Below are positions 2,662-59,295 of a DNA stretch of 64,000 nt, one piece after another; the first letter of the stretch is position 1; every line of letters starts with the position of its first letter. The translations under genes were made by a program, and so were the position numbers. The notes beneath the pieces were generated by a model. That model was not told the DNA's origin, ran no database searches, and was given only the letters and a program-made list of their open reading frames with translations. The stretch is from positions 16,663,262 to 16,727,261 of the forward strand of contig NC_058063.1 of assembly GCF_020085105.1 (NCBI RefSeq), written 5' to 3'. Source of the stretch: Siniperca chuatsi. Taxonomy: Eukaryota > Chordata > Actinopteri > Centrarchiformes > Sinipercidae.

Positions 2662-2701
<40 letters not shown>

Positions 2702-33764: not shown

Positions 33765-33859
33765 TTCCTGGCAATGATAAAGATCTGAAAGCTTGATATT
33801 TTAATATTCAAATGCAACGTCAATGTGGCAACTAGAGTGTATGAACAGGATTAATATAC

Positions 33860-33932
33860 TATTGTGAGCAGTCTGCATCAGCACAGAAGGGAGAGACATC
33901 AGAGCAGGGTGAAGCTGAGAAGAGCAGGAAAT
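33860..33932 (+). promoter_or_regulatory. putative promoter-proximal non-coding exon, lectin copy 1
   Basis: GCATCAGCAC and GAGAGACATCAGAG are followed by a splice donor (GAAAT/GTAAGT at 33932/33933). The same block precedes lectin copies 2 and 3. A TATA-like AATATACTAT lies just upstream, near 33853. The next acceptor (CATCTAACAG) abuts the AGCAAAGATG that begins the signal-peptide exon. Confidence 0.5.
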
Positions 33933-35476
33933 GTAAGTTAAGACTCTGCTGTATTATTTGAGATTTAATGTTTAATGTTTTATCCAGTAGATTCAGTTTC
34001 TTTTAAAATAAATTTGTGTGTTCAAGTAATACTGAACGTTGTGCAACAGTGTGTTTGCATTTTTTAAATCTTTTTGGACACAATAACAAAAATAAATACG
34101 ACAGTAAATAGTGTGTAGAGAGGGTTTTGTTGTGTCAGAGTGACGTTTTGAATTCTAACAATGTAAAACTTGCTGTTCAATGTTTTATTACCCAAGAAAT
34201 ACTTCATATCATTAAGCTGTGCGGTTATTTTGATTATCCCGCATAAAATGGGCTCATTGCTTTTGGAGAGACATCTTGAAAATAGATTTTTAATATAATT
34301 TTAATTTTAATATAGTGTTTGTGGTAGTGATTGCACACGTAGCCCATAAAAGAATACGCTCAAGCATCTTTTGTTAACTTTGGCATGATCAATGCTCATT
34401 TCACTCAGAGTTCATCAGATAAATGAGCTGAATAATAAAAGGTGTGAACAACAGGAAATAAAACAGTAATCCATCCAATCCAAGACAAACAACACCAATC
34501 CAATATGAGGAAAAAGCACCTTTGAGCATTATATACACACAAAAGACAAAGGGCCAAAAAAGGTATAGGCTACAAAATGAAATAAATACATGAAAAATAA
34601 GAGAAAAAAGTGGAATAAATTTTAAACAATGTGGTTTATTTTTTTGTGACTCCGTCCTGCTTGCTGTTAGCACCTCTTCCTCTTACACTTTGTGCAAAGC
34701 TCCCTCCTCTTTTTCATATGAATAAATATGACGTAATAATATGACATCATAAAACAAAATGTTAAAACCCAGTTCATTATTATGATGTGTTGTTTCATCC
34801 TGCTTCGTTTCACAATAACAACTTTCGAGGATGAAGCCTGAGATCTCTTCATGGCCAATGTGGGCAGGAGGAACAATTACAGTGACTAATGTCTCTTTCA
34901 TTGTACATGTGCATGTCAGTATTGTATTAAGACAGACATGAAAAAATATGAACCTATCCTTTGACATATTGCATGGCTTACAAACAGGGAAATACACCAG
35001 ATGACTTAAAAATGTATTTGTTATCACCCCCTCAGCATCCCAGACAGCCATGGTGGTGCATTTTCTCCTAAGCGCTGTCTTTGGAAACGCCAGTTAAAGG
35101 TAATAAGTGTGTTAGGGCCCAGAACATTAAATTATTATTTAATTAATTTAATAATGAATTCATAATAGCCCAGTGCATTTTGTTATCTGTATTTTACTCA
35201 AATCACACATTTCCATTGGCTAAAGGGGCACTTCTGGATGTGAACAAATGTTGAGTCTTGTTGTGCAATGATGAGAATACTTCCCACTAATTTATATTCC
35301 TCTTTCTTACTAGACTCCTGCCTAAACATTGAGTCCTGAGGGAATTGGACAGTTATTTTTTCTTACTGGACATAGAAGAGTTTCAGTGCATGTCCCTTAG
35401 CCTAAAGACAAGCTGTTAAAATCAAGTTTTTTGTTCACTGCACACTAAAATATCAGTGTCATCTAACAGAGCAAAG

Positions 35477-38087
35477 ATGCAGTGGAGTCTGTTTCTACTC
35501 ATTCTGATGGGTAAGTGGATCATCTTACCAGCTCTACTGCAGTATAACTACAGTACAACCGCTACCATTTTTTTTCTATAATCACTTCAACTTAATCTGG
35601 AGTCATACAACAGCTGGAAAGCTCTGTCATCTTATCAATAAAATGTAGAATAAGTGGACTCAGAGCCACATTTTAAATTCAGGATGGTTACTTACAGGAT
35701 GGTGTAAGTAGTGGGTGTGACCTGGGTACTCATGATTTTGATTTATTAAACAGATGTTTGTCATGCTATCAGCTCCAACACTACTATTTTCTCTGTTGTT
35801 AGGTCAGTGTTCCTTCGTCACTTGTCACCTCTATGAGTACCACTTTATTGAAGAGGAAAAGTCCTGGAAGGAAGCCCAGAGGTATTGCAGAGAGAATTAC
35901 AGGGACCTGGCCACAGTGTCTAACATGACAGACATGAAGAGACTCCGTGACTCTACAGTGAAGCAAGACGAAGCCTGGATTGGGCTGTACAGCAACCCAA
36001 ACAGGAGCTGGCACTGGTCTCTGCCAGGGGTGGAGTTCAATGATAGTGAGACAGAATGGGACTCGAACGAACCAAATGATATCAAAGGTTTTGAGAACTG
36101 TGTGGGGATGGACAATCATAAATGGAGGGATTTCCCTTGTGTAAATGAATTTAAAGTTATCTGCTACGATGGTGAGAATATGTGGCTAATATTGACATTA
36201 CGTGTACTCAGCATATCATCCTGCCTAACAATTGTTTTTGATGAGAACATAACCTTTTTTTAATAGAAAAATCATTCTAAACCACTGTATGCCATATTTT
36301 TCTTTTATTTTACACAAAATTATCTGATCTACCTTATTATACCACAAACACTTTCATCTAAATATCTGAAACTGCATGATCATTTATCTCACATTATTGT
36401 TTCACCTGTTTTAAATAAGAAAATAGGATTTTATGAGACTAAATAACATAAAACAAAAAACAAAAATGTGGATTTCTAACTGTCCAAGTTTGTCTTTTTA
36501 TTCCACAGAAACAAAGCAATCCAATAATAAATTCAGTTTGATTAACAACGTAATGACCTGGCCAAAGGCTCAGAACTACTGCAGACAACATCACACTGAG
36601 CTGGTCAGTGGACTCAATCAGTTAAAAGAACTAAAGAATGGCCATTATTCTGGAGAGAAATTGTGGATCGGCCTGTTCAGAGACACCTGGAGGTGGTCAG
36701 ATGGGAGCAATTCTTCTTTCAGAAACTGGGATCTGGAGTTATTTAAAGATGAAGACAACAAGACATGTGCTATGACTGTGTTAAATAGATTTGGAAAATG
36801 GAACTCTGATGATTGTAATAAAACAAAGCCCTTCTTCTGCTATGACGGTGAGTTTTGCAAAGGTCTCTCTCAACTGTTTTCTCCAATAGGAGCAGAACTG
36901 GAATCAGCTAGAGAATCCATCTGAATTTACAGTATTTAATAATTATTTTAGTTAAATGTTTATGCATGAATGTTGAATTTCTTTCATGAATATTTTTGTT
37001 CCAAATCTCAGGATTTCACATCTGGATTCTGGATGCTTCACCTGTTGCTTTTGTTTGTTTGTTTTTTTCATTCTTATTTTCTTTTAAAAGAAGGGGTTTC
37101 TTTAAAGGTCCAGTGTGTAACATTTAGGAGGAGCTATTGGCAGAAATGGAATATAATATTTGTATGTAAGTATGTTTTCAGTAGTCTATAATCACCTGAA
37201 AATAAGAATCATTGTGTTTTTGTTACCTTACAATAAGCCGTTTTTATCTACAGAGGGAGCGGGTTCCCTTTCACAGAGGCCGCTCCTCTCTGCACCACCA
37301 TGTTTCTACAGTAGCCCAGAACGGACAAACCAAACACTACATAAGGGCATTCGTGTTTTTCGTGGCCACCGTAGTTTCTCCTACACGCGTGGAAAGGGAG
37401 GGTGAGGCGAGCAGTATTCAAATGGTTGCAATCTGCAATTTCACCGCTAGATGCCACTAAATCCTACACACTGGACCTTTAAATGTCTTTCTTATTTTAT
37501 TAATCAAATTTATGTTAGATGTTGTGTCCTGGCATGGCATGCTTTAAAATAAAATGTCACTTACTCAAGACATTCTTAAAATTTGAAAGATATTTGTTAT
37601 TAGCACCAAACATATAAGCAGGCACCTAAAACATTCCATATCAGTATTGAAGATCCATATTGGATCGCAGTGTTCTCAATAATGAACTGAACACAGCTGC
37701 TGGTATGATCCTGTGTTTGTCTCAATTTCTTCCATGACAGATAAAGTGATCCTGATCAAACAAAACAAGACCTGGGAGGAGGCCTTATATTACTGCAGAG
37801 AGAACCACAATGACCTGGTCTCCATCACTAAACCTGACGAGCAGAGATGGGTCCAAGAGAGAGCCAAGAAGGCCGACACTCCTTTTGTCTGGCTGGGACT
37901 GCGCTACACCTGCACTCTGGGTTTCTGGTTCTGGGTCAGTGACGAGGTAGTCAACTATAAGAACTGGGCTCCAGGTCAAAACATGGATGAGTGTAACATG
38001 TCAGGAGCCATGGGCAGAGGAGGACAACATGAGTGGATCAAAAAGGTGGATAATGAGGAGTTTAATTTCATCTGTTCTAAGCGTTGA
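35477..38087 (+). CDS. secreted triple C-type lectin domain protein, copy 1
   Basis: Four coding exons, 35477-35510, 35803-36171, 36509-36847 and 37741-38087, give 362 aa; all introns are phase 1 and each of exons 2-4 is one C-type lectin domain. The N-terminus is a signal peptide (MQWSLFLLILMG, cleavage near residue 20) and there is no membrane segment, so secretion is expected. Domain 1 (about 21-134) keeps WIGL, an EPN sugar-specificity motif (NEPND), ENC and W-x-D (KWRDFPC), suggesting calcium-dependent mannose/GlcNAc-type binding. Domain 2 has no EPN but keeps KWNSDDC. Domain 3 has APGQ where EPN would be. Several N-x-S/T sites are present. The closest known proteins are fish 'macrophage mannose receptor-like' or CLEC20A-like multi-lectin proteins. 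The loop in domain 1 is shortest here (SNPNRSW). Confidence 0.85.
37102..37483. mobile_element. MITE in lectin copy 1, intron before last exon
   Basis: The inverted termini AAAGGTCCAGTGTGTA and TACACACTGGACCTTT are flanked by TTAA-like sequence. The same element is at the orthologous place in copies 2 and 3, so it was inserted before the gene was triplicated. Confidence 0.7.
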
Positions 38088-38566
38088 AACCCACTGTGCT
38101 CACTGGGAGCAGACGTTTTATTCATTCACTCGCTTTGTCTTTTACTTTGGAAGAGGTTTACACTATATATATGTTCTCTGGGTTTATTGAATGGAATTCT
38201 GGGAAATGTAGGAATCCGAACCTGAGGAGGAGAGAAATGGAAATTACTAATATGCAGATTTTAATTTGAGGTAAAGTGGTTACGCTTTATTCAGTCACAA
38301 AGTACCACAAGATTACTAAGGATGTGACCAGTAACATGTTTTTCTGTCTCCTTTTTCTGATTCACTAACACCTGAATGATCACTAGATGCCAGATTACAG
38401 TGACTATTTGTTATTTTCTGAAGATATGGAACATTTTATATTCTTTTTATCAAGTTTTGGTTAAGATCTGGTGATGGTTACATAGTTATATTATGTAAAA
38501 TCTTTGTTTTTGATGGTGACATTTTTGGAGTTAATAATTGCTTAATAATTGCTTTTTCTGAGTCTG

Positions 38567-38572
38567 AATAAA
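38567..38572 (+). other. polyadenylation signal, lectin copy 1
   Basis: AATAAA 480 bases after the stop codon, in the conserved context CTGAATAAACTGAGTGG that recurs after copy 2. Confidence 0.55.
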
Positions 38573-40884
38573 CTGAGTGGTCCTCTCTCTTTTTCACTTA
38601 ACCAAGTGCTTATTAAGCCAACCCATTCTTTCCCTAAACCTAGCCAGGCTGTTTTTGTGCCTAAACCTAACCAAACCTTATAGCGTAACATCATAAAACA
38701 GTGGTTTGCATGGCACAGACAATTGATGTCGTCCTGCGGATAAAGGCATCAGATCAGAAAACTTTTCTGTGTGTCGTTCCACCAGACACTGGATACTCAG
38801 ATCAGCAAATGTAAATGCTTTTAAATGCATACGCTAGTAAATTAAGTATGTGTAATTAAGTCATTTTACTACACCATCCTCCCCCTCCCCTCTGCTCTGG
38901 ATGAGTGGCTTCACATGCTGTACCGCATTATTCCAGCTGATGGCAGCAGACTGACCGCAGCCAGGATTCCACTCATCTCTCTTTAACTGACTTGTTTACC
39001 ATTTACCCATGACACATGGCCAAAGATTGTCATTTTTCTTTTAAAGTCATCTAATTCCAGCTCATGGAAAGTTATCTGTTCCAGTATGTAACAGGGCGCA
39101 TGATCAGCGCACTTCAGTATGCTGTTGTTTCGTGGTCTGTGGAAACTGATGGGCTGACACTTTGGCTGTTTTTAAGTTTCTCTGGTGGAAAAAAAAAAGC
39201 TTTGCATTCACTTTCAAAGTCACAAAATAAACAACAAAGTGAAGACTAGTGGTCTGAATAGTATTAGTTTGTGTCTAGAGTCTCCTGTTCAGTTCAAATT
39301 GGCCAGTTAACAGCCAGTCACATTGGGGGGTAATTATTGTCTGTGCAGTGGCAACTCACAGCTTTTCTTCCCAGCTTAGAGAGTGTCAGAGATTTGTTTT
39401 CCACAAGTTTTGAGTTTTAACCATTTTATTGCAACAAAAAGGTTCGGTCCCTGTGTCAAGTCTCATGCAGCAAAGGGTGAGTCCGATATTGCTACAGTTA
39501 AACATTTAATATTGTTTTTATATTTACAGGAGGTTTTACTGATTTATCTGCCAACGCACAAGTATATGAGACAACAAGAAGAAGTATGTCAAAAATCATG
39601 TTTACGTACTGATATACTTTATATTGTACTGATTTAATTTTTACATGGGAATTTTTTGATCACACTTAAGAGATGAATATTGGGAATATTGTCCTGGAAT
39701 ATATTTACTTTTAATGTATTATCTAATTACAAACTGACTACAAATAAAGGTGTATGTACACTTATTGGCTGCTTAAAAACATTTTCCTCCACGGTGTTCT
39801 GATGATAAAAAAATAGATACTTTACTTCGATGATATTTCTGACAGTGAGGTTATTGTTGTAAAGTGGGGCTGCTTTTTAAAAGAGATTAACACCAGTGCT
39901 TGTATATAATACAGCTACTCTGTGACCTGAGAGGTCTTGATCTGGTCTTCTTCTAGTTTTGTCTTGCTCTTGAGACTTGTATACATGCCTCTCTATCATA
40001 GGATGAATGAAATATACTGTCTGAGAGGGAAACAACTGAGATGGGCGGGATTAGTGAGCACGGACAGGGCTTTCCCCCGGAAATGTGTTTAAGGAAGTGG
40101 TACGCTCGCTTCATCCGCCTACCCCTTCCAAAAAGAAAACAAAAATACAAACTGCCTTTATTCTCTGCACACACAAAATGTCACCTGCAATTACAAACTA
40201 TGTGACTGGACTTGGGAAAATAATAATGACAGTCTACACACTTATAATATTTGGGGATCTAATAGAGCCAGAGCCTGTGTTTTAGCTGTGTGAAAAATGG
40301 TTAAAAAAATAGCCTCCTGATATGTTGAACAAGATGTCCTAAACGACAAAACAAAATGACAAAATAGGTTATTTGTAATGTTGTCGCCTTCAAATATGCA
40401 TATGTGTTAGAAAAATGATTCATATGCGGACTGTTCTTTTGTTAAGTTTACAAACAAATGTACTTAGTTAAGGTTAGGGAAAGATCATAGTTAGAGTTTG
40501 GAAGAAACTACTTAAGGTGTTTACTCTGTTCTGTATGTATCTATCTATTATAGATATATATTTTTATAAAGCTGAATTTGACACCATAAACCTTGTATTT
40601 TAACAAATATTAGTTAAAATCATTGCTGGCGTAACACTAATCCTAACTCAAGGGGTAAAGATTATTTTTGAATTTCACAAAATAGATTTTTACAGAAGGT
40701 AAAATTCTTTAGCTTCAATTATAGCTCAAAATTTGATGAATTCAATTCATTTCCCCCAGAAGTGGCTGTAGCGTTTTGAAATGATGCTTGTTGGACAGTC
40801 AACAGTCCAGTGTTTTCTATTTCTGTTTGTTTTCCATCACATTATGTAAATGACCTCTTTCATAACTGCCTTCTTGTCATCAAT
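38573..40884. repeat. lectin spacer, first copy
   Basis: No gene recognised. The short open frames here (for example 39064-39249, 39383-39637 and 40085-40285) recur almost unchanged in the second spacer (44951-47284). That reflects duplication rather than proven coding constraint. A GGCTTTCCCCCGGAAATGTG segment near 40067 and AT-rich stretches are seen. Confidence 0.6.
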
Positions 40885-40984
40885 GGATCCTTCTGGCAGT
40901 GATAGAGATCTGAAACTTCTGCATTTTAATATTCAAATGCTGACATTGAAGTGGCTACAAAAGACCGCTGTGTTAGCAGAGCAG

Positions 40985-41057
40985 GTAATATTTTATATCT
41001 GCATCAGCACGTCAAGGAGAGACATCAGAGAAGCGAAGAGAGAAGAAATCACCAGAT
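40985..41057 (+). promoter_or_regulatory. putative promoter-proximal non-coding exon, lectin copy 2
   Basis: TTTTATATCT at about 40991 is a TATA-like box. GCATCAGCACGTCAAGGAG follows, then a donor, CCAGAT/GTAAGT, at 41057/41058. The block matches 33860-33932 and 47385-47457. Confidence 0.5.
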
Positions 41058-41509
41058 GTAAGTTTAAACTCTGTTGTGTCACTTGAGATTTTAATGTTGT
41101 GTCCTAAAAGGTGGACAGAACAGTGTATCCACTATATAACTATTTCCAATATGTTCACAGAGCTATTTGTCGTTCAGTACTTGTATTTAACATTTTGTAT
41201 ATAACAAATAGTCAAATTAATATCGTGAATATAGCTTTTTCATTCACACATACACCTGACAATATAATGCAAACAATTCAAAAACACCTGCAATAAATAC
41301 AACCTTTGTTAAGCTCACTGTGCAGTGTTTAGGTTTTGATGACGCTGTCAGAGGAGTTTTGAATTGACTGGTACATTTTCATGACAGATTGCATCTTGTA
41401 AGGTGTTCCTCTTATGTTGTGAATCACCTTCACATTCATAATAGACATTACAAGAGTCTACACAGAAAATGTATTCCAGGTTCTTGTATTGCACTATGTT
41501 TCAAATCCA

Positions 41510-41635
41510 TCCATCCATCCATCCATTTTCTACCGCTTGGTCCCGTTAGGGGTCGCGGGTGACTGGAGCCTATCCCAGTGACTTTGGGCCTTAGGCAGGG
41601 TACACCCTGGACAGTGGCCAACTCGTCGCAGGGCT
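41510..41635 (-). mobile_element. LINE/SINE tail insertion with target duplication in unit 2
   Basis: A TCCATCC tandem run followed by TTTTCTACCGCTTGGTCCC and GGGTACACCCTGGACAGTGG, a common fish retroelement 3' end in reverse orientation. It is flanked by the 13-base direct repeat TGTTTCAAATCCA (41497-41509 and 41636-41648). The same place in unit 3 (about 47899-47911) has a single copy of that sequence and no insertion. Confidence 0.85.
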
Positions 41636-41937
41636 TGTTTCAAATCCATATTTTACTCAAATATCTAACTTTCATGGGCTAAAAACATTTATGATTGTGT
41701 ACTTAGTTCTGGTTTGACTATGTTTTGCATATTTCCTACCATCCTATATTCTTCTTCCTTATTGGACTAAACTTCGTACACTGGAGGGAGTGGTGCAGTT
41801 TTGTTTTTTTTTGTTAATTTTAACTTTGACATCCAGTAAGTGTTGAAGTGCATTTCATCTAACAGAGATAAACTGTTGAAATCATTGTGTTTGGTTCACT
41901 ACACACTAATATATCAGTTTCATCTAACAGAGCAAAG

Positions 41938-44465
41938 ATGCAGCAGAGTCTGTTTCTACTCATTCTGATGGGTAAGTGGATCATCTTACCATTTATTTAG
42001 ATAAAGATTATTTGTACAGCTTAATATGGATTCACAGAACAGTTGGACATCTCACACTTTCATCAAATAAAAAGTAAAATATATAAATGAAGAAACTAGA
42101 CGCAGAATTCCAACTGAAGTAAGGAGCATTGTATAAGTAGTAGGTGTGACTCATGATTTTGATTTCATGCTATCAGCTCCATCACTGCAGCCTTTCCTCT
42201 GTTGTTAGGTCAGTGTTCCTTCTTCACTTGTCACCTCTATGAGTACCACTTTATCAAAGAGGAAAAGTCCTGGAAGGAAGCCCAGACGTATTGCACAGAG
42301 AACTACACGGACCTGGCCACAGTGTCTAACATGACAGACATGAAGAGACTCCGTGACTCTACAGTGAAGCAAGACGAAGCCTGGATTGGGCTGTACAGCA
42401 ACCCAGGAAACAGGAGCTGGCACTGGTCTCTGCCAGGGGTGGAGTTCAATGATAATGAGACAGAATGGAGCTTGGGAGAACCAAATGATAAAGGAGGTAT
42501 CGAGAACTGTGTGGAGATGAAAAATCCCAAATGGGAGGATTTCCCTTGTACAGATACATTTAAATTTATCTGCTACGATGGTGAGAATATGTGGCTAATA
42601 ATGACATTACTCAGCATATCATCCTGCCTACCAATTGTTTTTGATGAGAACATAACTCTTTTTTTCATAGAAAAATCGTTCTAAACCACTGTATGCCATA
42701 CTTTTCTTTTATTTTACACAAATTATCTGCTCTACCTTATTATACCACAAACACTTTCATCTAAATATCTGAAACTGCATGATCATTTATCTCACATTAT
42801 TGTTTCACCTTTTTTAAATGAGAAAATGGGATTTGTGAGACTAAATAACATAAAACAAAAACAAAAATGTGGATTTCTAACTGTCCAAGTTTGTCTTTTT
42901 ATTCCACAGAAACAAAGCAATCCAATGATAAATTCAGTTTGATTAACAACGTAATGACCTGGCCACAGGCTCAGAACTACTGCAGACAACATCACACTGA
43001 CCTGGTCAGTGGACTCAATCAGTTAAAAGAACTAACGGATGTCAGTTATTCTGGAAAGAACTTGTGGATCGGCCTGTTCAGAGACACCTGGAGGTGGTCA
43101 GATGGGAGCAATTCTTCTTTCAGAAACTGGGATCTGGAGTTATTTAAAGATGAAGACAACAAGACATGTGCTATGACTGTGTTAAATAGAGTTGCAAAAT
43201 GGAACTCTGATGATTGTAATAAAACAAAGCCCTTCTTCTGCTATGACGGTGAGTTTTGCAAAGGTCTCTCTCAACTGTTTTCTCCAATAGGAGCAGAACT
43301 GGAATCAGCTAGAGAATCCATCTGAATTTACAGTATTTAATAATTATTTTAGTTAAATGTTTATGCATGAATGTTGAATTTCTTTCATGAATATTTTTGT
43401 TCCAAATCTCAGGATTTCACCTGTTGCTTTTGTTTGTTTGTTTTTTTCATTCTTATTTTCTTTTAAAAGAAGGGGTTTCTTTAAAGGTCCAGTGTGTAAC
43501 ATTTAGGAGGAGCTATTGGCAGAAATGGAATATAATATTTGTATGTAAGTATGTTTTCAGTAGTCTATAATCACCTGAAAATAAGAATCATTGTGTTTTT
43601 ATTACCTTAGAATAAGCCGTTTTTATCTACAGAGGGAGCGGGTTCCCTTTCACAGAGGCCGCTCCCTCTGCACCACCATGTTTCTACAGTAGCCCAGAAC
43701 GGACAAACCAAACACTAGATATGGGCATTCGTGTTTTTCGTGGCCACCGTAGTTTCTCCTACACGCGTGGAAAGGGAGGGTGAGGCGAGCAGTATTCAAA
43801 TGGTTGCAATCTGCAATTTCACCGCTAGATGCCACTAAATCCTACACACTGGACCTTTAAATGTCTTTCTTATTTTATTAATCAAATTTATGTTAGATGT
43901 TGTGTCCTGGCATGGCATGCTTTAAAATAAAATGTCACTTACTCAAGACATTCTTAAAATTTTAAAGATATTTGTTATTAGCGCCAAACATATAAGCAGG
44001 CACCTAAAACATTCTATATCAGTATTGAAGATCCATATTGGATCGCAGTGTTCTCAATAATGAACTGAACACAGCTGCTGGTATGATCCTGTGTTTGTCT
44101 CAATTTCTTCCATGACAGATAAAGTGATCCTGATCAAACAAAACAAGACCTGGGAGGAGGCCTTATATTACTGCAGAGAGAACCACAATGACCTGGTCTC
44201 CATCACTAAACCTGACGAGCAGAGATGGGTCCAAGAGAGAGCCAAGAAGGCCGACACTCCTTTTGTCTGGCTGGGACTGCGCTACACCTGCACTCTGGGT
44301 TTCTGGTTCTGGGTCAGTGACGAGGTAGTCAACTATAAGAACTGGGCTCCGGGTCAAAACATGGATAAGTGTGACATGTCAGGAGCCATAGACAAAGGAG
44401 GACAACATGAGTGGTTCAAAAAGGTGGATAATGAGGAGTTTAATTTCATCTGTTCTAAGCGTTGA
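41938..44465 (+). CDS. secreted triple C-type lectin domain protein, copy 2
   Basis: Coding exons 41938-41971, 42209-42580, 42910-43248 and 44119-44465 give 363 aa. It has a signal peptide (MQQSLFLLILMG) and three lectin domains, one per exon, with no membrane anchor. Domain 1 (about 21-135) has WIGL, GEPND (EPN type) and KWEDFPC; its loop has one extra Gly relative to copy 1 (SNPGNRSW). Domains 2 and 3 differ from copy 1 at only a few residues (for example VAKWNSDDC for FGKWNSDDC, and CDMSGAIDKGG for CNMSGAMGRGG). It is likely a soluble carbohydrate-binding immune protein. The ligand cannot be read from sequence, and domain 1 is the only one with an intact EPN motif. Confidence 0.85.
43481..43861. 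mobile_element. MITE in lectin copy 2, intron before last exon
   Basis: Same element and position as 37102-37483 in copy 1, with the AAAGGTCCAGTGTGTA and TACACACTGGACCTTT ends. Confidence 0.7.
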
Positions 44466-44944
44466 AACCCACTGTGCTCACTGGGAGCAGACGTTTTATT
44501 CATTCACTCGCTTTGTCTTTTACTTTGGAAGAGGTTTACACTATATATATGTTCTCTGGGTTTATTGAATGGAATTCTGGGAAATTAAGGAATCCGAACC
44601 TGGGGAGGAGAGAAATGAAAATTACTAATATGCAGATTTTAAATTGAGGTAAAGTGGTTACGCTTTATTCAGTCACAAAGTACCACAAGATTACTAAGGA
44701 TGTGACCAGTAACATGTTTTTCTGTCTCCTTTTTCTGATTCACTAACACCTGAATGATCCCTAGATGCCAGATTACAGTGACTATTTGTTATTTTCTGAA
44801 GATATGCAACACTTTATATTCTTTTTATCAAGTTTTGGTTAAGATCTGGTGATGGTTACATAGTTATATTATGTAAAATCTTTGTTTTTGATGGTGACAT
44901 TTTTGGAGTTTTATGTAAACAGATAATTGCTTTTTCTGAGTCTG

Positions 44945-44950
44945 AATAAA
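44945..44950 (+). other. polyadenylation signal, lectin copy 2
   Basis: AATAAA 480 bases after the stop codon in the same context as after copy 1. Confidence 0.55.
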
Positions 44951-47284
44951 CTGAGTGGTCCTCTCTCTTTTTTTCACTTAACCAAGTGCTTATTAAGCCA
45001 ACCCATTCTTTCCCTAAACCTAGCCAGGTTGTTTTTGTGCCTAAACCTAACCAAACCTTATAGCGTAACATCATAAAACAGTGGTTTGCATGGCACAGAC
45101 AAATGATGTCGTCCTGCGGATAAAGGCATCAGATCAGAAAACTTTTCTGTGTGTCGTTCCACCAGACACTGGATGCTCAGATCAGCAAATGTAAATGCTT
45201 TTAAATGCATACGCTAGTAAATTAAGTATATGTAATTAAGTCATTTTACTACACCATCCTCCCCCTCCCCTCTGCTCCCAGTCTAAATTGGTTCGTATGA
45301 GTGGCTTCACATGCTGTACCGCATTATTCCAGCTGATGGCAGCAGACTGACCGCAGCCAGGATTCCACTCATCTCTCTTTAACTGACTTGTTTACCATTT
45401 TACCCATGACACATGGCCAAAGATTGTCATTTTTCTTTTAAAGTCATCTAATTCCAGCTCATGGAAAGTTATCTGTTCCAGTATGTAACAGGGCGCATGA
45501 TCAGCGCACTTCAGTATGCTGTTGTTTCGTGGTCTGTGGAAACTGATGGACTGACACTTTGGCTGTTTTTAAGTTTCTCTGGTGGAAAAAAAAAAGCTTT
45601 GCATTCACTTTCAAAGTCACAAAATAAACAACAAAGTGAAGACTAGTGGTCTGAATAGTATTAGTTTGTGTCTAGAGTCTCCTGTTCAGTTCAAATTGGC
45701 CAGTTAACAGCCAGTCACATTGGGGGGTAATTATTGTCTGTGCAGTGGCAACTCACAGCTTTTCTTCCCAGCTTAGAGAGTGTCAGAGATTTGTTTTCCA
45801 CAAGTTTTGAGTTTTAACCGTTTTATTGCAACAAAAAGGTTCGGTCCCTGTGTCAAGTCTCATGCAGCAAAGGGTGAGTCCGATATTGCTACAGTTAAAC
45901 ATTTAATATTGTTTTTATATTTACAGGAGGTTTTACTGATTTATCTGCCAACGCACAAGTATATGAGACAACAAGAAGAAGTATGTCAAAAATCATGTTT
46001 ACGTACTGATATACTTTATATTGTACTGATTTAATTTTTACATGGGAATTTTTTGATCACACTTAAGAGATGAATACTGGGAATATTGTCTTGGAATATA
46101 TTTACTTTTAATGTATTATCTAATTACAAACTGACTACAAATAAAGGTGTATGTACACTTATTGGCTGCTTAAAAACATTTTCCTCCACGGTGTTCTGAT
46201 GATAAAAAAATAGATACTTTACTTCGATGATATTTCTGACAGTGAGGTTATTGTTGTAAAGTGGGGCTGCTTTTTAAAAGAGATTAACACCAGTGCTTGT
46301 ATATAACACAGCTACTCTGTGACCTGAGAGGTCTTGATCTGGTCTTCTTCTAGTTTTGTCTTGCTCTTGAGACTTGTATACATGCCTCTCTATCATAGGA
46401 TGAATGAAATATACTGTCTGAGAGGGAAACAACTGAGATGGGCGGGATTAGTGAGCACGGACAGGGCTTTCCCCCGGAAATGTGTTTAAGGAAGTGGTAC
46501 GCTCGCTTCATCCGCCTACCCCTTCCAAAAAGAAAACAAAAATACAAACTGCCTTTATTCTCTGCACACACAAAATGTCACTTGCAATTGCAAACTATGT
46601 GACTGGACTTGGGAAAATAATAATGACAGTCTACACACTTATAATATTTGGGGATCTAATAGAGCCAGAGCCTGTGTTTTAGCTGTGTGAAAAATGGTTA
46701 AAAAAACAGCCACCTGATATGTTGAACAAGATGTCCTAAACGACAAAACAAAATGACAAAATAGGTTATTTGTAATGTTGTCGCCTTTAAATATTCATAT
46801 GTGTTAGAAAAATGATTCGTATGCTGACTGTTCTTTGGTTAAGTTTACAAACAAATGTACTTAGTTAAGGTTAGGGAAAGATCATAGTTAGAGTTTGGAA
46901 GAAACTACTTGGTTAAGGTGTTTACTCTGTTCTGTATGTATCTATCTACTATAGATATATTTTTTATAAAGCTAAATTTGAAACCATAAACCTTGTATTT
47001 TAACAAATATTAGTTAAAATCATTGCTGGCGTAACACTAATCCTAACTCAAGGGGTAAAGATTATTTTTGAATTTCACAAAATAGATTTTTACAGAAGGT
47101 AAAATTCTTCAGCTTCAATTATAGCTCAAAATTTGATGAATTCAATTCATTTCCCCCAGAAGTGGCTGTAGCGTTTTGAAATGATGCTTGTTGGACAGTC
47201 AACAGTCCAGTGTTTTCTATTTCTGTTTGTTGTCCATCACATTATGTAAATTACCTCTTTCATAACTGCCTTCTTGTCATCAAT
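44951..47284. repeat. lectin spacer, second copy
   Basis: Nearly identical to 38573-40884, with scattered substitutions and small indels, for example the CCCAGTCTAAATTGGTTCG segment near 45277 that the first spacer lacks. No gene recognised. Confidence 0.6.
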
Positions 47285-47384
47285 GGATCCTTCTGGCAGT
47301 GATAGAGATCTGAAACTTCTGCATTTTAATATTCAAATGCTGACATTGAAGTGGCTACAAAAGACCGCTGTGTTAGCAGAGCAG

Positions 47385-47457
47385 GTAATATTTTATATCT
47401 GCATCAGCACGTCAAGGAGAGACATCAGAGAAGCGAAGAGAGAAGAAATCACCAGAT
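47385..47457 (+). promoter_or_regulatory. putative promoter-proximal non-coding exon, lectin copy 3
   Basis: Same TATA-like box, GCATCAGCACGTCAAGGAG block and CCAGAT/GTAAGT donor as in unit 2; the donor is at 47457/47458. Confidence 0.5.
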
Positions 47458-48199
47458 GTAAGTTTAAATTCTGTTGTGTCACTTGAGATTTTAATGTTGT
47501 GTCCTAAAAGGTGGACAGAACAGTGTATCCACTATATAACTATTTCCAATATGTTCACAGAGCTATTTGTCGTTCAGTACTTGTATTTAACATTTTGTAT
47601 ATAACAAATAGTCAAATTAATATTGTGAATATAGCTTTTTCATTTACACATACACCTGACAATATAATGCCAAACAATTCAAAAACACCTGCAATAAATA
47701 CAACCTTTGTTAAGCTCACGGTGCAGTGTTTAGTTTTTGATGACGCTGTCAGAGGAGTTTCGAATTGACTGGTACACTTTCATGACAGATTGCATCTTGT
47801 AAGGTGTTCCTCTTATGTTGTGAATCACCTTCACATTCATAATAGACATTACAAGAGTCTACACAGAAAATGTATTCCAGGTTCTTGTATTGCACTATGT
47901 TTCAAATCCATATTTTACTCAAATATCTAACTTTCATAGGCTAAAAAACATTTATGATTGTGCAGTTAGTTCTGGTTTGACTATGTTTTGCATATTTCCT
48001 ACCATCCTATATTCTTCTTCCTTATTGGACTAAACTTCGTACACTGGAGGGAGTGGTGCAGTTTTTTTTTTTTTGTTAATTTTAACTTTTACATCCATTA
48101 AGTGTTTAAGTGCATTTCATTGAATAGAGATAAACTGTTGAAATCATTGTGTTTGGTTCACTACACACTAAAATATCAGTTTCATCTAACAGAGCAAAG

Positions 48200-51031
48200 A
48201 TGCAGCAGAGTCTGTTTCTACTCATTCTGATGGGTAAGTGGATCATCTTACCATTTATTTAGATAAAGATTATTTGTACAGCTTAATATGGATTCACAGA
48301 ACAGTTGGACATCTCACACTTTCATCAAATAAAAAGTAAAATATATAAATGAAGAAACTAGACGCAGAATTCCAACTGAAGTAAGGAGCATTGTATAAGT
48401 AGTAGGTGTGACTCATGATTTTGATTTCATGCTATCAGCTCCATCACTGCAGCATTTCCTCTGTTGTTAGGTCAGTGTTCCTTCTTCACATGTCACCTCT
48501 ATGAGTACCACTTTATTGAAGAGAAAATGTCCTGGAAGGAAGCCCAGACATATTGCAGAGAGAACTACACGGACCTGGCCACAGTGTCTAACATGACAGA
48601 CATGAAGAGACTCCGTGACTCTACAAAGAAGCAAGACGAAGCCTGGATTGGTCTGTACAGCAACCCAGGAAAAGAAAACAGGAGCTGGCACTGGTCTCTG
48701 CCAGGGGTGGAGTTCAATGATAATGAGACAGAATGGAGCTCGGGAGAACCAAATGATAAAGGAGGTATCGAGAACTGTGTGGAGATGGAAAATCACACAT
48801 GGAAGGATTTCCCTTGTATAAAAAAATTTAAATTTATCTGCTACGATGGTGAGAATATGTGGCTAATAATGACATTACTCAGCATATCAACCTGCCTAAC
48901 AATTGTTTTTGATGAGAACATAACTCTTTTTTCATAGAAAAATCATTTTAAACCACTGTACGCCAAACTTTCCTTTTATTTTACACAAAATTATCTGATC
49001 TACCTTATTATACCACAAACACTTTCATCTAAATATCTGAAACTGCATGATAATTTATCTCACATTATTGTTTCACCTGTTTTAAATAAGAAAATAGGAT
49101 TTTATGAGACTAAATAACATAAAACAAAAAACAAAAATGTGAATTTCTAACTGTCCAAGTTTGTCTTTTTACTCCACAGAAAGAAAGCAATCCAATGATA
49201 AATTCAGTTTGATTAACAAAGTAATGACCTGGCCACGGGCTCAGAACTACTGCAGACAACATCACACTGACCTGGTCAGTGGACTCAATCAGTTAAAAGA
49301 ACTAACGGATGTCAGTTATTCTGGAAAGAAATTGTGGATCGGCCTGTTCAGAGACACCTGGAGGTGGTCAGATGGGAGCAATTCTTCTTTCAGAAACTGG
49401 GATCTGGAGTTATTTAAAGATGAAGACAACAAGACATGTGCTATGACTGTGTTAAATAGAGTTGGAAAATGGAACTCTGATGATTGTAATAAAACAAAGC
49501 CCTTCTTCTGCTATGATGGTGAGTTTTGCAAAGGTCTCTCTCAACTGTTTTCTCCAATAGGAGCAGAACTGGAATCAGCTAGAGAATCCATCTGAATTTA
49601 CAGTATTTAATAATTATTTTAGTTAAATGTTTATACATGAATGTTGAATTTATTTCATGAATATTTTTGTTCCAAATCTCAGGATTTCACATCTGGATTC
49701 TGGATGCTTCACCTGTTGCTTTTGTTTGTTTGTTTTTTTCATTCTTATTTTCTTTTAAAAGAAGTGTGTTTTTTAAAAGGTCCAGTGTGTAACATTTAGC
49801 AGGAGCTATTGGCAGACATAGAATATAATATTTGTATGTAAGTATGTTTTCATCAGTGTATCCATCCATCCATCCATCCATTTTCTACCGCTTGGTCCCC
49901 GTTAGGGGGTCGCGGGTGACTGGAGCCTATCCCAGTGACTTTGGGCCTTAGGCAGGGTACACCCTGGACAGTGGCCAACTCGTCGCAGGGCTAACACAGA
50001 CACAGACAAGGACAGACAACCATTCACTCACACATTCATTCAATACGGGCAATTTAGAGTTATCAATTAACCTACACATGCATGTCTTTGGACGGTGGGA
50101 GGAAGCCGGAGAACCCGGAGAGAATTCATCAGTGTATAATCACCTGAAAATAAGAATCATTGTGTTTTTGTTACCTTAGAATAAGCCGTTTTTATCTACA
50201 GAGGGGGAGGGTTCCCTTTCACGGAGGCCGCTCCCTCTGCACCACCATGTTTCTACAGTAGCCCAGAACGGACAAACCAAACACTAGATAAGGGCATTCT
50301 TGTTTTTCGTGGCCACCGTAGTTTCTCCTACATGCGTGGAAAGGGAGGGTGAGGCGAGCAGTATTCAAATGGTTGCAATCTGCAATTTCACCGCTAGATG
50401 CCACTAAATCCTACACACTGGACCTTTAAATGTCCTTCTTATTTTATTAATCAAATTTATGTTAGATACTGTGTCCTGGCATGGCATGCTTTAAAATAAA
50501 ATGTCACTTATTCAAGACATTCTTAAAATTTTAAAGATATTTGTTATTAGCACCAAACATATAAGCAGGCACCTAAAACATTTTATATCAGTATTGAAGA
50601 TCCATATTGGATCGCAGTGTTCTCAACAACTAACTGAACACAGCTGCTGGTATGATCCTGTGTTTATCTCAATTTCTTCCACGACAGATAAAGTGATCCT
50701 GATCAAACAAAAGAAGACCTGGGAGGAGGCCTTACATTTCTGCAGAGAGAACCACAATGACCTGGTCTCCATCACTAAACCTGACGAGCAGAGATGGGTC
50801 CAAGAGAGAGCCAAGAAGGCCGACACTCCTTTTGTCTGGATGGGACTGCGCTACACCTGCACTCTGGATCTTTGGTTCTGGGTCAGTGACGAGCTGGTCT
50901 GCTATAAGAACTGGGCCCCAGGTCAAAAGATGGATGAGTGTGACATGTCAGGAGCCATGGACAGAGGAGGACAACATAAGTGGTTCAGTCGGCGTGAAAA
51001 TGAAAAATATAATTTCATCTGTGCTGTATAG
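48200..51031 (+). CDS. secreted triple C-type lectin domain protein, copy 3
   Basis: Coding exons 48200-48233, 48471-48848, 49180-49518 and 50688-51031 give 364 aa with a signal peptide and three one-exon lectin domains. Domain 1 keeps WIGL, GEPND and TWKDFPC, and has the longest version of its loop (SNPGKENRSW, two residues more than copy 2). Domain 2 matches copies 1 and 2 almost exactly. Domain 3 is the most diverged of the three copies: LCYKNWAPGQ with an extra Cys, and a C-terminus ending FICAV rather than FICSKR. The third intron is longer because of a retroelement inserted inside the resident MITE. Function is as for the other copies, a probable soluble calcium-dependent lectin; specificity unknown. 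Confidence 0.85.
49774..50429. mobile_element. MITE in lectin copy 3, interrupted
   Basis: The same MITE as in copies 1 and 2 but split by the insertion at 49861-50124. The right end TACACACTGGACCTTT is intact. Confidence 0.7.
49861..50124 (-). mobile_element. retroelement 3' end nested in the MITE
   Basis: A longer member of the same family as 41510-41635 (TCCATCC run, TTTTCTACCGCTTGGTCCCC, then CATTCACTCACACATTCATT and GGAGAACCCGG). It is flanked by the direct repeat TTCATCAGTGTA (49849-49860 and 50125-50136). It is absent from copies 1 and 2. Confidence 0.85.
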
Positions 51032-51664
51032 TAAGTTCTACAATACACCCTAACTCACTGGTGACAGACTTCATGTTTCTAGACTGAATTCATTTTATGC
51101 ATTTCATTTTCTTGAATACAACAAGCTTCATTGTCTGTTCTGAATTGGCATTATGGCACATGTAGAAATCAGGTGAAAAATTAAATTACAGATTAGATGT
51201 TGAGAGAGAGTGGCTACACCAAAAAAAATCAATCGTAACGCATTGCATGATCACTAAGGATGTTTACATGTCAGTAGCTAAATCTGAAGTAACCCTGAAA
51301 ACATGTGTTTCTGTCTCCTTGTCCTGATTCAGGAACGTCTGAATGACCTTTATCATTGCTGGATGACAGAGAAGTACAGACAACAACAAGCAGCAGTAAT
51401 CGTTTAATATTCGTTGAGGATGATGTTATATTTTACTTTTTATGCATCTCTTGAGGTTGTATTTTGCATCCCATCAGTGTGGTACAGTAGTAGAAAAAAT
51501 AGGAATAAATAAACCAACCTATAGTTTGCTATAGTAAACATTTCATATACTGACTTTGGAATGTTTTATGATCGGGTGATGTTTTAAATATGTAAAATCA
51601 TATTTCTGTGATTATCATATTTTTCATTTTTTTTGTAAACAGATCAATTATTTTTCTGATGCTG

Positions 51665-51670
51665 AATAAA
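51665..51670 (+). other. polyadenylation signal, lectin copy 3
   Basis: AATAAA in the context GCTGAATAAACTCTGACATG, 633 bases after the stop codon. It is recognisably homologous to the signals of copies 1 and 2. Confidence 0.5.
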
Positions 51671-51717
51671 CTCTGACATGTTTTATGTCCAACGTTTACA
51701 TAAGTGATGCCTAATTT

Positions 51718-52236: not shown

Positions 52237-55200
52237 ATGGAGGATCCTTGCAAGTATCCTGTTTTCTTCGAGTGCCCCTCTTTGGACGGAGAGCAAAGAA
52301 AGAGGATAGAAAACTACTTCCAGATTCGCCGCAAATCAGGAGGAGGAGACTGCAGCGCAGTGACAAACATAAATGATAAAGTTTACAGCATTGCTTTTAA
52401 AGAGCGAGATGGTAAGACACGCTATTTAAAATATGTATCTGTTGAATTGGGTCCTTGACGTTGATTTCTTAAATTATGTCGTAAAATGTCTTGTGCTGGT
52501 GAAAGTGAAAGTATTCCTGCACTGGAAACGGATGGATTTCATTCGATTATTTCAACGTTTTTTTTTTTTTTTTTTTTTTTTATTAAAGATCAATTTTACT
52601 GCTTGCAGACCCACATTCAAACTTTTTGACTGTCGATGTTACTTTTTCACGTACTGTATATCAAGCTGTCTAAATTTAGAAACGTGTCATTCATGTTTCA
52701 CTTTCACATTTAGGTCAGACTGCTCTTCGAATAGTAGCCTACAAAATGAATCTTAGACGCTGCATATGGACACAGTATTTGATATTTGTGTCATATATTC
52801 TCTTAAGATGAGCTAAATAGTCTTGCAAATCCTAAATGACTCCTACTCTAAAAACACATGTCATAATCACAAGTCACATGACATGTCTGTCAACTTTATG
52901 ATCTTGTTGATTCTGTCTCCTTGTAGTTGTTTTGTGTATCAATGTTGTCGTTTTCCACCTCTTTGTAGTCGTTTTGTGTTTCTTTTAGTGACATTTTGCA
53001 GGTGAAGCAGAACTCTTAGGTGTTGTTTTTGGTTCAAAACCTGCAGCTGGACTTCAGTATTTAGTTCACACTGGAGATGAAGAGAGGCTGTCTGACTCCT
53101 GTCCAAAGATTCCTTTCACAGCAGATCCACATTAACACTACTCTGCACAGATATTATTCTAAATACTACAGCACACCGTACAGAATATGGTTCCCCCTGA
53201 CCCCTTGGGTCTCTGGGCCTGTGTCTGGTTTGACGTATTCTATCCATTCATTCTGTCCAAGAGTGAAGAGTAAAGTGCAACTACAATAAGGCCTCAGCTC
53301 TAATTCACACAGTCAGGGACGAATTCAGGATTCAACATTCTACGCACTTTATTTCATTTAAATAAGCACAGAGGCAGGGAGAGAGGGTGGAGGGGCAACC
53401 AAACTGAATCTAGTGCTGAAAGACAAAAGCCCTAATAAGTAATGTCCCCATTTCTGTTCTCAGCTCAGCAAAGAGTCCTGCAGAGATCTGAACATGTGTT
53501 GGAGTTTGCAAGTGGTCCTCTGGTGCTGACTGTGCGAGACAGCCCTGAACCTACAAGCAAGAAAGTTAGCCCTACACTGGACTTAACTTCATCACAGGTC
53601 AGTGTGGAAAGTCTTTTATTAATAGTGTTTAATCTCTCAGTAAATGTTGAACACTACATTTGGAAAAAAAATATTTCAGTTATAAAAACAAGTTTCATTA
53701 TTATCATTATAAGGCATCACAAGCACTTGCTGAGTTCAGATTGATTGGAACAATTGAAAATGATTTTCTCTATATTCTGTATGTCTTAAACACCGTTTTG
53801 GATTGAATATCAATAACTCTTTAAAACTGTTGCCATGTACTTAAAATCAAACTTGATATAATGTAAATCTTTCCAACAGCAGAGCCCACAGGCCATTCCA
53901 GCCTCAACTCCTCCACCAAGTGGTGAAGAATATGAACTACAACTTGATACTTACCTCCTTCGTTACCTAAAAGAATGTCCCAAGGCTGGGAAAGAACTAG
54001 AGAAAGAACTTGCCTCTGTGGCCTGCTCTGCCCAGCTTTACCCAGAGGAGGAGAGGGTTTTAGTCAGGAGTTTAGCTCAACCTGGTGCTGTAGATGAAGC
54101 TAGAAATCGGAAAGTCAAGGTAGGCAAAATCTTTGATGGCTACCTGTGCCACTATGAGATGGACCCTCACAAAGTTAAAGCTTTGCTTCAGTCTTGCAGC
54201 TCTGATCAGACCACAGATGAGGTGAAAGTGTACAGCGAGCTTGGGATGGCTGTTGTGGTTGGGAAACATTCTCAGGTGAACGCCAGGTTGATGGATGTAG
54301 AGGACAGGTCAGGTTTAAGTGAGACGCAAACCAGCATTCGTCGACTGGGCAAGGCCAAGCTCCGCCTCCTCTGGAAAGAGATTGAGCACAGTTTGCGACG
54401 AGATTTTCCAGGAGTGAAGGTCACGCAGGGAGATGCAGGTCAGTTAGTTTTGGAAGGCTCTGTGGAGGAGATTCTTAGGGCTGGAGATTGGATCTCTGAT
54501 AAGGAGAATTTGGTGTTAGAAAGGACAGTTTCTGATAGGAGCCCACATTTTTTGGCCTTTCTAAGGAAGGCATACGGAGGTCCGGGGGTGCTAAATGACT
54601 TTTTAGGGGTTGGTAACAAAGTGGAAGTAGAGTTACGAGACACAGAGCTACGTTTCTTCACACTCTCTGCTGATAAACTGGATGACACAGAGAAAAAACT
54701 GCAAGAAAAATTCAAGGAAGTCAAGATTGATGTGCCTAACTGCTCTGCTGTGCCATCTGAGCTTCGGGAAAAGCTGAAGTCCAAGACAAATGAGATGAAC
54801 CAAGGGCAACATAGGGCTCAGGTCGTGTTTGGCTCAGACAGCGCAGTGTGCTTACTGGGCCACACGAAAGAGGTTGAAGAGCTGAGTGACGATGTCATAC
54901 AGTTTATTTTGGACCAGTTAAGCATAGAAGGCAAAGTCATTCTCCCTTTCCCAGAGTTAGTACAACTCTTACCAGAATTGCTGCAACTGCACAAGTTTGA
55001 CTATTCAGGGGTTACCTTCCATCCTTTAACATCTTTCTCTGGGCCCATGGTGATGCTGGAAGGTCCATCCCTCAAAGTGACTGAGGTCAGGAACAGGCTG
55101 GGTCCATTTCTGGACTCCCTTGTTCAGGGTAAAGTCACCATTGACCTGCCAGGTGCAGTAAGATATTTTAAAAGTCCCTCTGGAAGAGAGAACATTTTAA

Positions 55201-58200
55201 GTGTTGCTCATTCTCAGAAGTGTCTCATACAGCTTCAAGAACAACCTAACACTACTAGACAGAATATGGCATCTGGTGCACATTTAAGTAAAGGAGGCAC
55301 AACAGTGGCTAGCTACAGCCTTCGTGACGGGCTCCAGGTGCTGGTGTGTCAGGGTGACATCACCAAACAGGATGCTGATGCCCTGGTGAACGCTGCCAAT
55401 GAAGACCTGGACCACTGTGGAGGTGTTGCTGCTGCCCTGAGTAAAGCAGGTGGCCCTCAGGTGCAGAAGGAGAGCAGAGCTTTAATAAGGCAGACAGGAA
55501 AAATCCCTACAGGTGAAGTGGTAGTGACCACAGGGGGGGACTTAAACTGCAAGAAACTGCTGCATGCTGTTGGGCCTGTTGGTGGAAAATCAGGTGGCAG
55601 AGAATGGGTGTTACTCAAAAAAACTGTCCATTCTGCTCTGAATTTAGCAGAAATCATGGAGTTCCAGTCTATAGCCATGCCCTGTATCAGCTCAGGTATG
55701 TTTGGTGTTCCTGTCACTGTGTGCTCTGAGGCTATTGTAACTGCTGTTAAAGAGTTTGGCAGTCAGGGAGGGCGAAGTCTGAGCAGAATCATCCTGATTG
55801 ATAACAGAGGAGAGGTGGTGAGGGCCATGCAGGAAGCATGTGACAGACTTTTCCAAGGGATCACTGTAGGAAACATTACAAGTGATTTGGGGTTTGGGAT
55901 AGGTGTTGCTGCCCAAAACACTGCAAGAGGAGCCACTGCAGCTCCTGGAGACGGTGTCTATGTCAAGGTCATTCAGGGAACCATCGAGACCCAGCAGGTA
56001 AGAGACTTTGATGAGATATTGAAGCTGCATTAATTTAAGTTTTGTTACTGGATTCAGGATGTTTCAGAAGCTTATCTGTCATAGTTGCTGGGTACCATTG
56101 TCTGTTTGCATAAAGAGCAGATGCTTTCAGGATGAACATGGTGGTCAGGATTATCCAAGTGTTGGATGAAATTAGATTGCTGTATTCTCCTAGGTGGATG
56201 GCCTGGTATCTCCTATGGTTGGCCATGATCCTCTCTCTACCCGTGTTGGAAACGCTTTGTCCAACATGGTTGGACCTCAGCTGACTGCAAAGTTTCATAA
56301 GGAAGCAGATGGAGCAACAAAGCCTGGTGACACAGTCCTGGTAGAGGGCTTGCCTGCACTTCAATCTAAAGGAGTGTTCTTCCTCAACCTCTTTCCCTGG
56401 GATAATGACCGACATGGAAATGCAGTCCAGGTGAAATCATGTGTTCAGTGATTATGTCTTTGTAGGTTTTTGTGCAACCAGGTTTGTCTTTACTGTGTCT
56501 GTGTTTTGTTTTTCCTACTGTCTTAAAATCTAAGGGGTGCAGTAACCTTGATAATCCTTGAATCTTTCAGGTTCTGAGTCAGAGCATCAGAAAGATTCTG
56601 GCTTCCTGTGAGATCAGAGGCTTCAGTTCAGTTGCTTTCCCTGTGCTTGGGACCGGTGCTGTCTTGTGTTTTCCTCACAGTGTGGCTTCCAAGGTTTTAC
56701 TGGAGGAGCTCCGTGTATTTGAACAGAATCGAGCCAGAAGAACATCTTTCCTGGTCCGTATTGTCATCCACCCCAATGACAAAGAATCTAGCAAGGTAAA
56801 GAAAATGTAGTTGCAGTGCCTTGTAAGAAAAAAGAGAGTACAATAAAATTGCCCACATCCTAAAGAGTAAGCCCAGGTTTATTATTTGTAGGCTGTGCCC
56901 TTTGTAATCTATTACGTAAATGCTAATATTATAACTACAAACATTTTGAAAGTATTTTGAAAATGCTGCATCAAAATAATTCTTTCACACATAATTCTTT
57001 ATGTCTTTTTCCCATTAATTACCATTGGAGTTATTGACCAGTTTAAAATAACACCAGATTGCATTGTTTTTTTTGTTTTGCAAGTGGAACTGGAATGAAA
57101 CCTTTCACTTTGTTACTACAGGCCTTCCAGTCTGCCCAGGAAACTTTGCATCTCAGAGGATTCACGAACGATGCTAACCCAGACCAAGGTTAATATGAAT
57201 ATTTCCTTTTCAATTTCAGGTTGAGCAAGACTTACTAACTTGTTTCCTCAATCTTTAAGACTGCAACAATAATTTTAAGGCCACAAGGGGGCAGAAAAAA
57301 CATGAAAGAGGCTCCTATACAAAGCCACCACCATATTATTTTGAAGTTATGGCTAATGTGTTAGCAGACTGTTATGTATGTATTCATTTGGAGTCTTATT
57401 TCAGTCTCCTTTTAACTCCTTATGTTCCTCAGCTATTTGCTCATTTGTTGTTGCTGCTGGGCTGGTAGTGTACAGAGGCTGTTTGCTAAAAATAGCTGCC
57501 TGCTACTGCTGGAAATTAGGTTGATTAGAGTGGTGAGATTTTGTCATGCAATAAATATGTGTGTGTAAAACCAAAACAAGAAGCTAAACGAGGCTAAAAA
57601 AAAGTGTGTGTTCTCTGTCAGTATAATTTTAGTTAATTTTTCTTTGATTGTGTCTTTTGATTGTCTTTTTTATTGGCATAACATTAGCTTCCTTTTACCG
57701 CCATGTCTCGGTAACTAATGATGAGGTCACAGCCATGCTGGGTGGAGTCAAGCTTCAGCTGGTCCATGGTGACATCATTAATGAGAGCACTGATGCAATT
57801 ATCAACACAACTGACTTCTCCAACAGCCAATCCGGTATGACTGATGGATTTTCTAAATGTTTTGAGTGACTTAAAATATACACATAGAGGATCACAGCAC
57901 CTCAGACTAGTGTTATTTATGAGGATTTTATACATTATATTAATCTTAAAGGTTAAATGCTACAGTAACTGTGTGTTCACAAACTCCACAGGTGTGTCCA
58001 AAGCCATTCTGACTGCAGCAGGGTCCACTGTCCAAGCCGAGTTAGCACAAGGTAAGCCTTAAGAGTGAACTGAAAAATACTGTAAAAATACTTGTTAGAA
58101 GTTTTGGTGTGCACATTACTTTTGTTGCATGTACTGCAGCAGGTAAAAATTGACTCGTTTCCATCTACCTGTTTTTAAGCAGATTTTCAATTTTGCTGTT

Positions 58201-59237: not shown

Positions 59238-59295
<58 letters not shown>

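Follow-up and report, generated by a model that had tools for sequence, protein, structure and literature searches.

A probable hybrid gene in a tandem array of triple C-type lectin genes of Siniperca chuatsi

The present analysis concerns a 64,000-nucleotide stretch of the genome of Siniperca chuatsi (hereafter the window; C22:16663262-16727261, in an assembly of 718.8 Mb in 65 contigs), in which three lectin genes, designated U1, U2 and U3, lie head to tail in the same orientation. The relationships between these genes, a fourth copy (U4) beyond the window, and the origin of the middle gene, U2, are described below.

Gene array, domain composition and relatives

The reading frames of U1, U2 and U3 are intact and their coding introns have GT-AG ends (Table 1). 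Each gene encodes a signal-like N-terminal stretch followed by three C-type lectin domains (CTLD1 to CTLD3, on exons 3 to 5), with three stretches matching PF00059 in each protein (144.2, 149.9 and 146.4 bits against a curated cut-off of 22.6); no other Pfam family exceeded its own cut-off in these proteins (E up to 0.001). The Glu-Pro-Asn (EPN) motif is confined to CTLD1. A sequence-only reading of the window had described three intact head-to-tail triple-lectin genes with EPN in the first domain only, and both statements are borne out. As judged by hydropathy only, no strongly hydrophobic 19-residue stretch occurs past residue 25 in U1-U3 (highest mean 1.01). An AlphaFold model of U2 CTLD1, computed with three window sequences as input, had a mean confidence score (pLDDT) of 37.7 and is uninformative for or against a CTLD fold. 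The gene products are predicted to be secreted, fast-evolving ligand-binding lectins, and by analogy with described relatives they probably have a role in innate immunity.

Table 1. Features of the lectin gene array (positions in the window)
Feature	Position	Strand	Remarks
U1 5' region (putative promoter, noncoding exon 1, intron 1)	33765..35476	+	U4-like rather than U2/U3-like; promoter and exon 1 predicted from sequence only
U1 gene, 362 aa	35477..38087	+	coding exons 35477-35510, 35803-36171 (CTLD1), 36509-36847 (CTLD2), 37741-38087 (CTLD3)
U1 3' flank and U1-U2 spacer, first copy	38088..40896	+	45/2808 differences from U2-U3 spacer
U2 5' region, common to U3	40897..41937	+	17/1128 differences between U2 and U3, 5' region through intron 2
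139-bp repeat insertion in U2 upstream region	41497..41635		target duplication TGTTTCAAATCCAT; absent from U3; limits approximate
U2 gene (probable chimera), 363 aa	41938..44465	+	coding exons 41938-41971, 42209-42580 (CTLD1), 42910-43248 (CTLD2), 44119-44465 (CTLD3)
Exon 3-intron 3 block with elevated U2-U3 divergence	42217..42967		37/750 aligned sites; 1.46% outside; 0/1000 permutations
Putative crossover zone, U2 switch from U3-like to U1-like, intron 3 to end of exon 4	42601..43247		site patterns, polarised sites, quartets
U2 3' flank and U2-U3 spacer, second copy	44466..47295	+	
U3 5' region, common to U2	47296..48199	+	
U3 gene, 364 aa	48200..51031	+	coding exons 48200-48233, 48471-48848 (CTLD1), 49180-49518 (CTLD2), 50688-51031 (CTLD3)
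Insertion of ~265 bp in U3 intron 4	49860..50124		bordered by ATCAGTGTA at each end; U1 and U2 lack it; limits approximate

Some 12 kb past the window end, at C22:16739245-16741774, the fourth three-CTLD gene, U4, is present in inverted orientation; it is 77-85% identical to U2 by exon. A protein search of the own genome, in which 90 candidates were scored, recovered 12 exons at 77-99% identity, all within U1-U4 on C22; it revealed no further close copy in the assembly, every other match being at or below 58%. The 5' region of U4 resembles that of U1 (13.9% different from the 5' region through intron 2, against 38.2% between U1 and U2).

The best matches of the whole U2 protein, without its signal peptide, among solved structures are to the mannose receptor family (yolk sac IgY receptor, PLA2R1, LY75, MRC1 and MRC2), and LY75 also heads the match list for U3 CTLD1. 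Members of this family are long membrane receptors with 8-10 CTLDs, whereas U1-U3 have three CTLDs and lack a membrane segment. The best single-stretch match to U3 CTLD1 is the lectin domain of L-selectin (3cfw; 54.2 bits, E 1.1e-13), which shares EPN; however, L-selectin has Trp-Asn-Asp (WND) where U1-U3 have WRD, WED and WKD, and U1-U3 lack its EGF and Sushi domains. The nearest described kin, likened by description, are the dual-CTLD or F1 group of Fugu, soluble proteins with two or three CTLDs which the authors inferred to evolve fast (Zelensky and Gready 2004, PMC514892). U1-U3, with three CTLDs each and no transmembrane segment as judged by hydropathy only, agree with that group in architecture; of the calcium and carbohydrate residues expected in at least one CTLD, U1-U3 keep EPN and have lost the Asn of WND, and U4 has the complete set. 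The accessible part of the Fugu account describes no hybrid gene (PMC514892).

Mirror-image divergence and the origin of U2

The divergence between the genes is uneven. Between U1 and U2, nucleotide differences fall from 33/369 (8.9%) in CTLD1 to 12/339 (3.5%) in CTLD2 and 7/347 (2.0%) in CTLD3, and the 3' flank and spacer differ by 1.6%, in agreement with the near-identity of domains 2 and 3 and spacers noted earlier. Over the stretch that begins with the 5' region and ends with intron 2, the U1-U2 alignment has 457 differences in 1197 sites and the U2-U3 alignment 17 in 1128; between the middle of exon 5 and a point about 600 bp into the 3' flank the relation is reversed, with 27/771 differences between U1 and U2 and 202/644 between U2 and U3. 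A sliding comparison in 200-column windows gives the same picture: U1-U2 divergence is 21-61% ahead of exon 3 and, one window of 6.2% apart, 0-3.5% beyond exon 4, and U2-U3 divergence is its mirror image, 0-3.6% upstream and 32-53% past the stop codon. The unevenness reported from the sequence alone is thus confirmed, but as a mirror image and not as a hotspot in domain 1 alone. The companion statement that domain 1 carries most of the differences holds for U1-U2 and fails for U1-U3, in which domain 3 is equally diverged (nonsynonymous divergence, dN, 0.099 against 0.089 in CTLD1; CTLD2 0.047).

The 5' region, signal exon and domain-1 exon of U2 group with U3, and its intron 4, domain-3 exon, 3' flank and spacer with U1. 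Quartets including U4 favoured (U1,U4)|(U2,U3) in the 5' region by 761 log-likelihood units (lnL) and in exon 3 by 9.9 lnL; the alternative (U1,U2)|(U3,U4) was favoured by 10.4 lnL over intron 3, exon 4 and intron 4 and by 86 lnL at the 3' end. The two halves of U2 thus have opposite sister relations.

Similar divergence is also observed on both sides of the duplicated block. Its copies (36848-43248 and 43249-49518, cut at the end of exon 4; about 6.4 kb) differ at 117/6236 sites overall and, without exons 3-5 and intron 3, at 70/4850 (1.44%), of which 45/2808 lie in the spacer, 17/935 in the 5' region with the 34-bp signal exon, 7/870 in intron 4 and 1/237 in intron 2. The similar divergence in both halves indicates about one age for both, the block in exon 3 and intron 3 excepted. 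Were the crossover placed earlier in the proposed interval, intron 3 and exon 4 would have to be compared between U1 and U2, and the values for that pair (10/328 and 12/339) are still above 1.44%. Conversion as the cause of the spacer uniformity was set aside in favour of a single duplication.

U2 is therefore very probably a chimera, in which the front of U3 has been joined to the back of U1 by unequal crossing-over in the tandem lectin array. The earlier array would have held two adjacent genes already diverged, A (the present U1) and C (the present U3), whose likeness was largely limited to a block running from shortly upstream of exon 3 to the vicinity of the stop codon (35761-38075), besides some 155 bp in the neighbourhood of the signal exon. 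Mispairing and exchange between them within this shared block, in intron 3-exon 4, would have duplicated about 6.4 kb and produced the order A - (C front/A back) - C, the hybrid U2 taking its 5' region, signal exon and CTLD1 from U3 and its intron 4, CTLD3 and 3' end from U1. A single unequal crossover would account at once for the hybrid, for the presence of a third gene and for the repetition of the spacer, and would explain most of the pattern; since then the copies would have diverged by 1.44% in noncoding DNA, exon 3-intron 3 (about 5%) excepted. U1 and U2 would be alike in domain 3 and the spacer, and unlike in domain 1 and upstream, because U2 is such a chimera. Having the 5' region of U3, U2 probably follows its regulation as well. 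Introns 3 and 4 of U1 and U3 differ by 3-4% from each other and by 14-22% from those of U4, which suggests that A and C had become alike in their cores through an older exchange; the earlier idea of conversion is supported in that limited sense.

The site patterns of the shared block support this origin. Its 131 informative sites comprise 40 U3-like and 22 U1-like sites up to 43191 and 7 and 62, respectively, to the right of it. The best single split lies at 42601-42622 and fits 103 of the 131 sites, a value matched by 0/10000 shuffles. Several observations nevertheless weigh against so simple an origin. U3-like sites persist up to 43191, intron 3 of U2 leans towards U1 (10 sites vs 3) and exon 4 towards U3 (10 vs 4), and polarised sites are mixed within the switch interval up to 43247. 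One sharp crossover point was therefore rejected, the switch is given as the interval 42601-43247, and its mixed nature across intron 3-exon 4 requires more than one exchange. The exon 3 quartet is moderate only, one of the two rejected topologies having an approximately unbiased (AU) test value, p-AU, of 0.054, and that over intron 3-intron 4 is likewise moderate (p-AU 0.045 for one rejected topology). The 3'-end split rests on U1-U2 likeness, U3 and U4 being still 27.4% different there. The donor for the private differences of U2 was not found, and an assembly misjoin or a private haplotype may underlie the hybrid.

A two-step origin, in which a tandem duplication of the whole gene was followed by a long conversion of the 3' half and spacer of U1, or of the 5' half of U3, onto U2, could accommodate the exchange required within exon 3-exon 4 in any case. 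It would nevertheless need a tract of several kilobases and a chance equality of divergence on both sides (spacer 1.6%, 5' region 1.8%), which one crossover gives together, and is considered highly improbable. It is equally hard to credit that a two-gene locus was present as two haplotypes which the assembly fused in mid-gene into a false hybrid: copies only 1.44% different in noncoding DNA are within reach of heterozygosity and the sequences of U1 and U3 nearly coincide in the neighbourhood of exon 4, but the window is without any N, the own-genome protein search disclosed no stray haplotype copy among the 90 candidates scored, and one of the copies has a repeat insertion, together with differences of about 5% in exon 3.

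Unequal crossing-over with the resulting chimera thus remains the preferred explanation, and hybrids of this kind are a commonplace outcome of that process in immune-type gene families. Chicken BG genes, as presented in the accessible part of the report, form a same-orientation immune array in which two 5' and two 3' types have recombined around a scrambled middle, with unequal crossing-over or deletion proposed as the cause (PMC4046983). U2 resembles them in its exchanged 5' and 3' ends and scrambled middle; the BG genes differ in being butyrophilin-related and twelve in number, in having been compared between haplotypes and in showing expression correlated with the 5' type (PMC4046983). A literature search over titles and abstract openings, with subscription papers mostly outside it, revealed no published chimeric gene in the present lectin group. 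As an example of unequal crossing-over that yields a hybrid immune-type lectin gene, U2 would be clear and of a single age, and its divergence can be judged against an internal control.

Divergence and the sugar-binding site of CTLD1

The sequence-only reading had attributed the pattern to diversifying selection on CTLD1, and the uniformity of domains 2 and 3 and of the spacers to conversion or recent duplication. The ratio of nonsynonymous to synonymous divergence (dN/dS) in CTLD1 is close to 1, at 1.30 for U1-U2, 0.82 for U2-U3 and 0.78 for U1-U3, and over the whole gene it is highest of the three pairs in U1-U2 (1.90). The strongest hint of selection is in the C-terminal half of CTLD1, where U1 and U3 differ at 21/165 sites against 43/1223 in introns 3 and 4 (Fisher p 5e-6). 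Exon 5 of this pair is in excess likewise (37/347), with 33 of the 37 differences in its second half, adjoining the diverged 3' flank. In the C-terminal half of CTLD1 all 9 U2-U3 differences are nonsynonymous (p 0.191), as are all 12 in CTLD2 of U1-U2; dN exceeded dS in 500/500 codon bootstraps for both, each having zero synonymous differences. The three different charged residues at the Asn position of WND, described below, and the introns 3 and 4 of U1 and U3, far closer to each other than to U4 as expected from an older core exchange, are also in keeping with that reading. Against this, binomial tests on rounded counts in eight chosen comparisons gave no nonsynonymous excess below 0.05 (lowest 0.090, CTLD2 of U1-U2), and CTLD3 of U1-U3 is as diverged as CTLD1. 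Moreover, the uniform part takes in a 2.8-kb spacer and the diverged part nearly unrelated upstream DNA. Selection on CTLD1 is thus quite unlikely as the main cause, although it may have acted on the C-terminal half of the domain; recent duplication with some sequence exchange, the other element of that reading, is retained. A chimera in a tandem array can mimic domain-specific selection in pairwise comparison, and a three-way comparison removes most of the signal.

The U2-U3 block over exon 3 and intron 3 (4.9% different) shows the excess in noncoding and silent sites also, which bears further on the role of selection. It contains 19/372 differences in exon 3 and 15/328 in intron 3 (17/328 in another alignment). 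Exon 3 is raised at nonsynonymous sites (about 15/303, p 0.0014) and at synonymous sites (about 4/66 against 18/1172 on the 5' side, p 0.026). An excess that extends to the intron and to synonymous sites is better explained by exchange with an unsampled copy or haplotype than by selection acting alone, and later short exchanges with unsampled copies are the likeliest origin of the block. U4 was rejected as the conversion donor: among the 36 U2-U3 differences (19 in exon 3, 17 in intron 3) it carries a private U2 or U3 state at 10 (5 in each) and a gap at 3, and some of the 10 may instead reflect changes common to U1 and U2.

A separate cluster occurs in exon 4 at 36635-36655, where six differences in 21 bp set U1 apart from U2 and U3 and the U1 protein has ELKNGHYSGE where U2, U3 and U4 read ELTDVSYSGK. 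It looks like a small exchange or a mutation cluster.

The EPN and WND motifs together form the calcium-dependent sugar site of mannose-type carbohydrate-recognition domains (CRDs), and loss of the WND Asn in such a domain is expected to weaken classical calcium-dependent sugar binding. In CTLD1 of U1-U3, EPN, the following Glu and the last Asp are kept, and the Asn of WND, whose position follows from aligning U3 CTLD1 with L-selectin, is replaced by Arg in U1, Glu in U2 and Lys in U3. The two motifs are thus found together in U4 and not in U1-U3, where classical binding by CTLD1 is probably weakened or changed, as judged from these residues. WND was detected in 4 of 9 distinct EPN/EPD domains by a one-pattern scan of the loci covered, which misses other layouts.

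The graded loop insertion proposed earlier in CTLD1 (SNPNRSW, SNPGNRSW and SNPGKENRSW) is exact as to the strings. However, the loop of U4 (SNPGNRRW) has the same length as that of U2; a deletion of one residue in U1 and an insertion of two in U3 are therefore the probable history. It is conceivable, though doubtful, that the four genes represent a recombining set of modules, in which the 5'/CTLD1 and CTLD3/3' halves are reassorted, that half of CTLD1 which holds the calcium site evolves rapidly towards a non-classical binding surface, with three different charged residues for the WND Asn, and regulation is swapped together with the binding domain.

Repeat insertions and neighbouring genes

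The two insertions listed in Table 1 belong to one repeat family, which starts with CCATCCATCC and is bordered by duplicated flanking sequence. The insertion upstream of U2 looks younger than the 6.4-kb duplication, because it is absent from U3.

Exons for Macro, WWE and PARP domains, presumably of a PARP14-like gene, lie between U3 and U4 (window ~52237-63702, + strand). On the other side of the array, open reading frames (ORFs) with Kelch and BTB/BACK domains, one of them matching BTB_KLHL33, are present at 304-13072 on the - strand, and a reverse-transcriptase fragment at 6715-7146 on the + strand (29.9 bits against a cut-off of 29.6). An ORF at 26468-26851 (+ strand) matches the amino acid permease family with 27.0 bits against a cut-off of 24.6 and is taken here to be a piece of a cation-chloride cotransporter.

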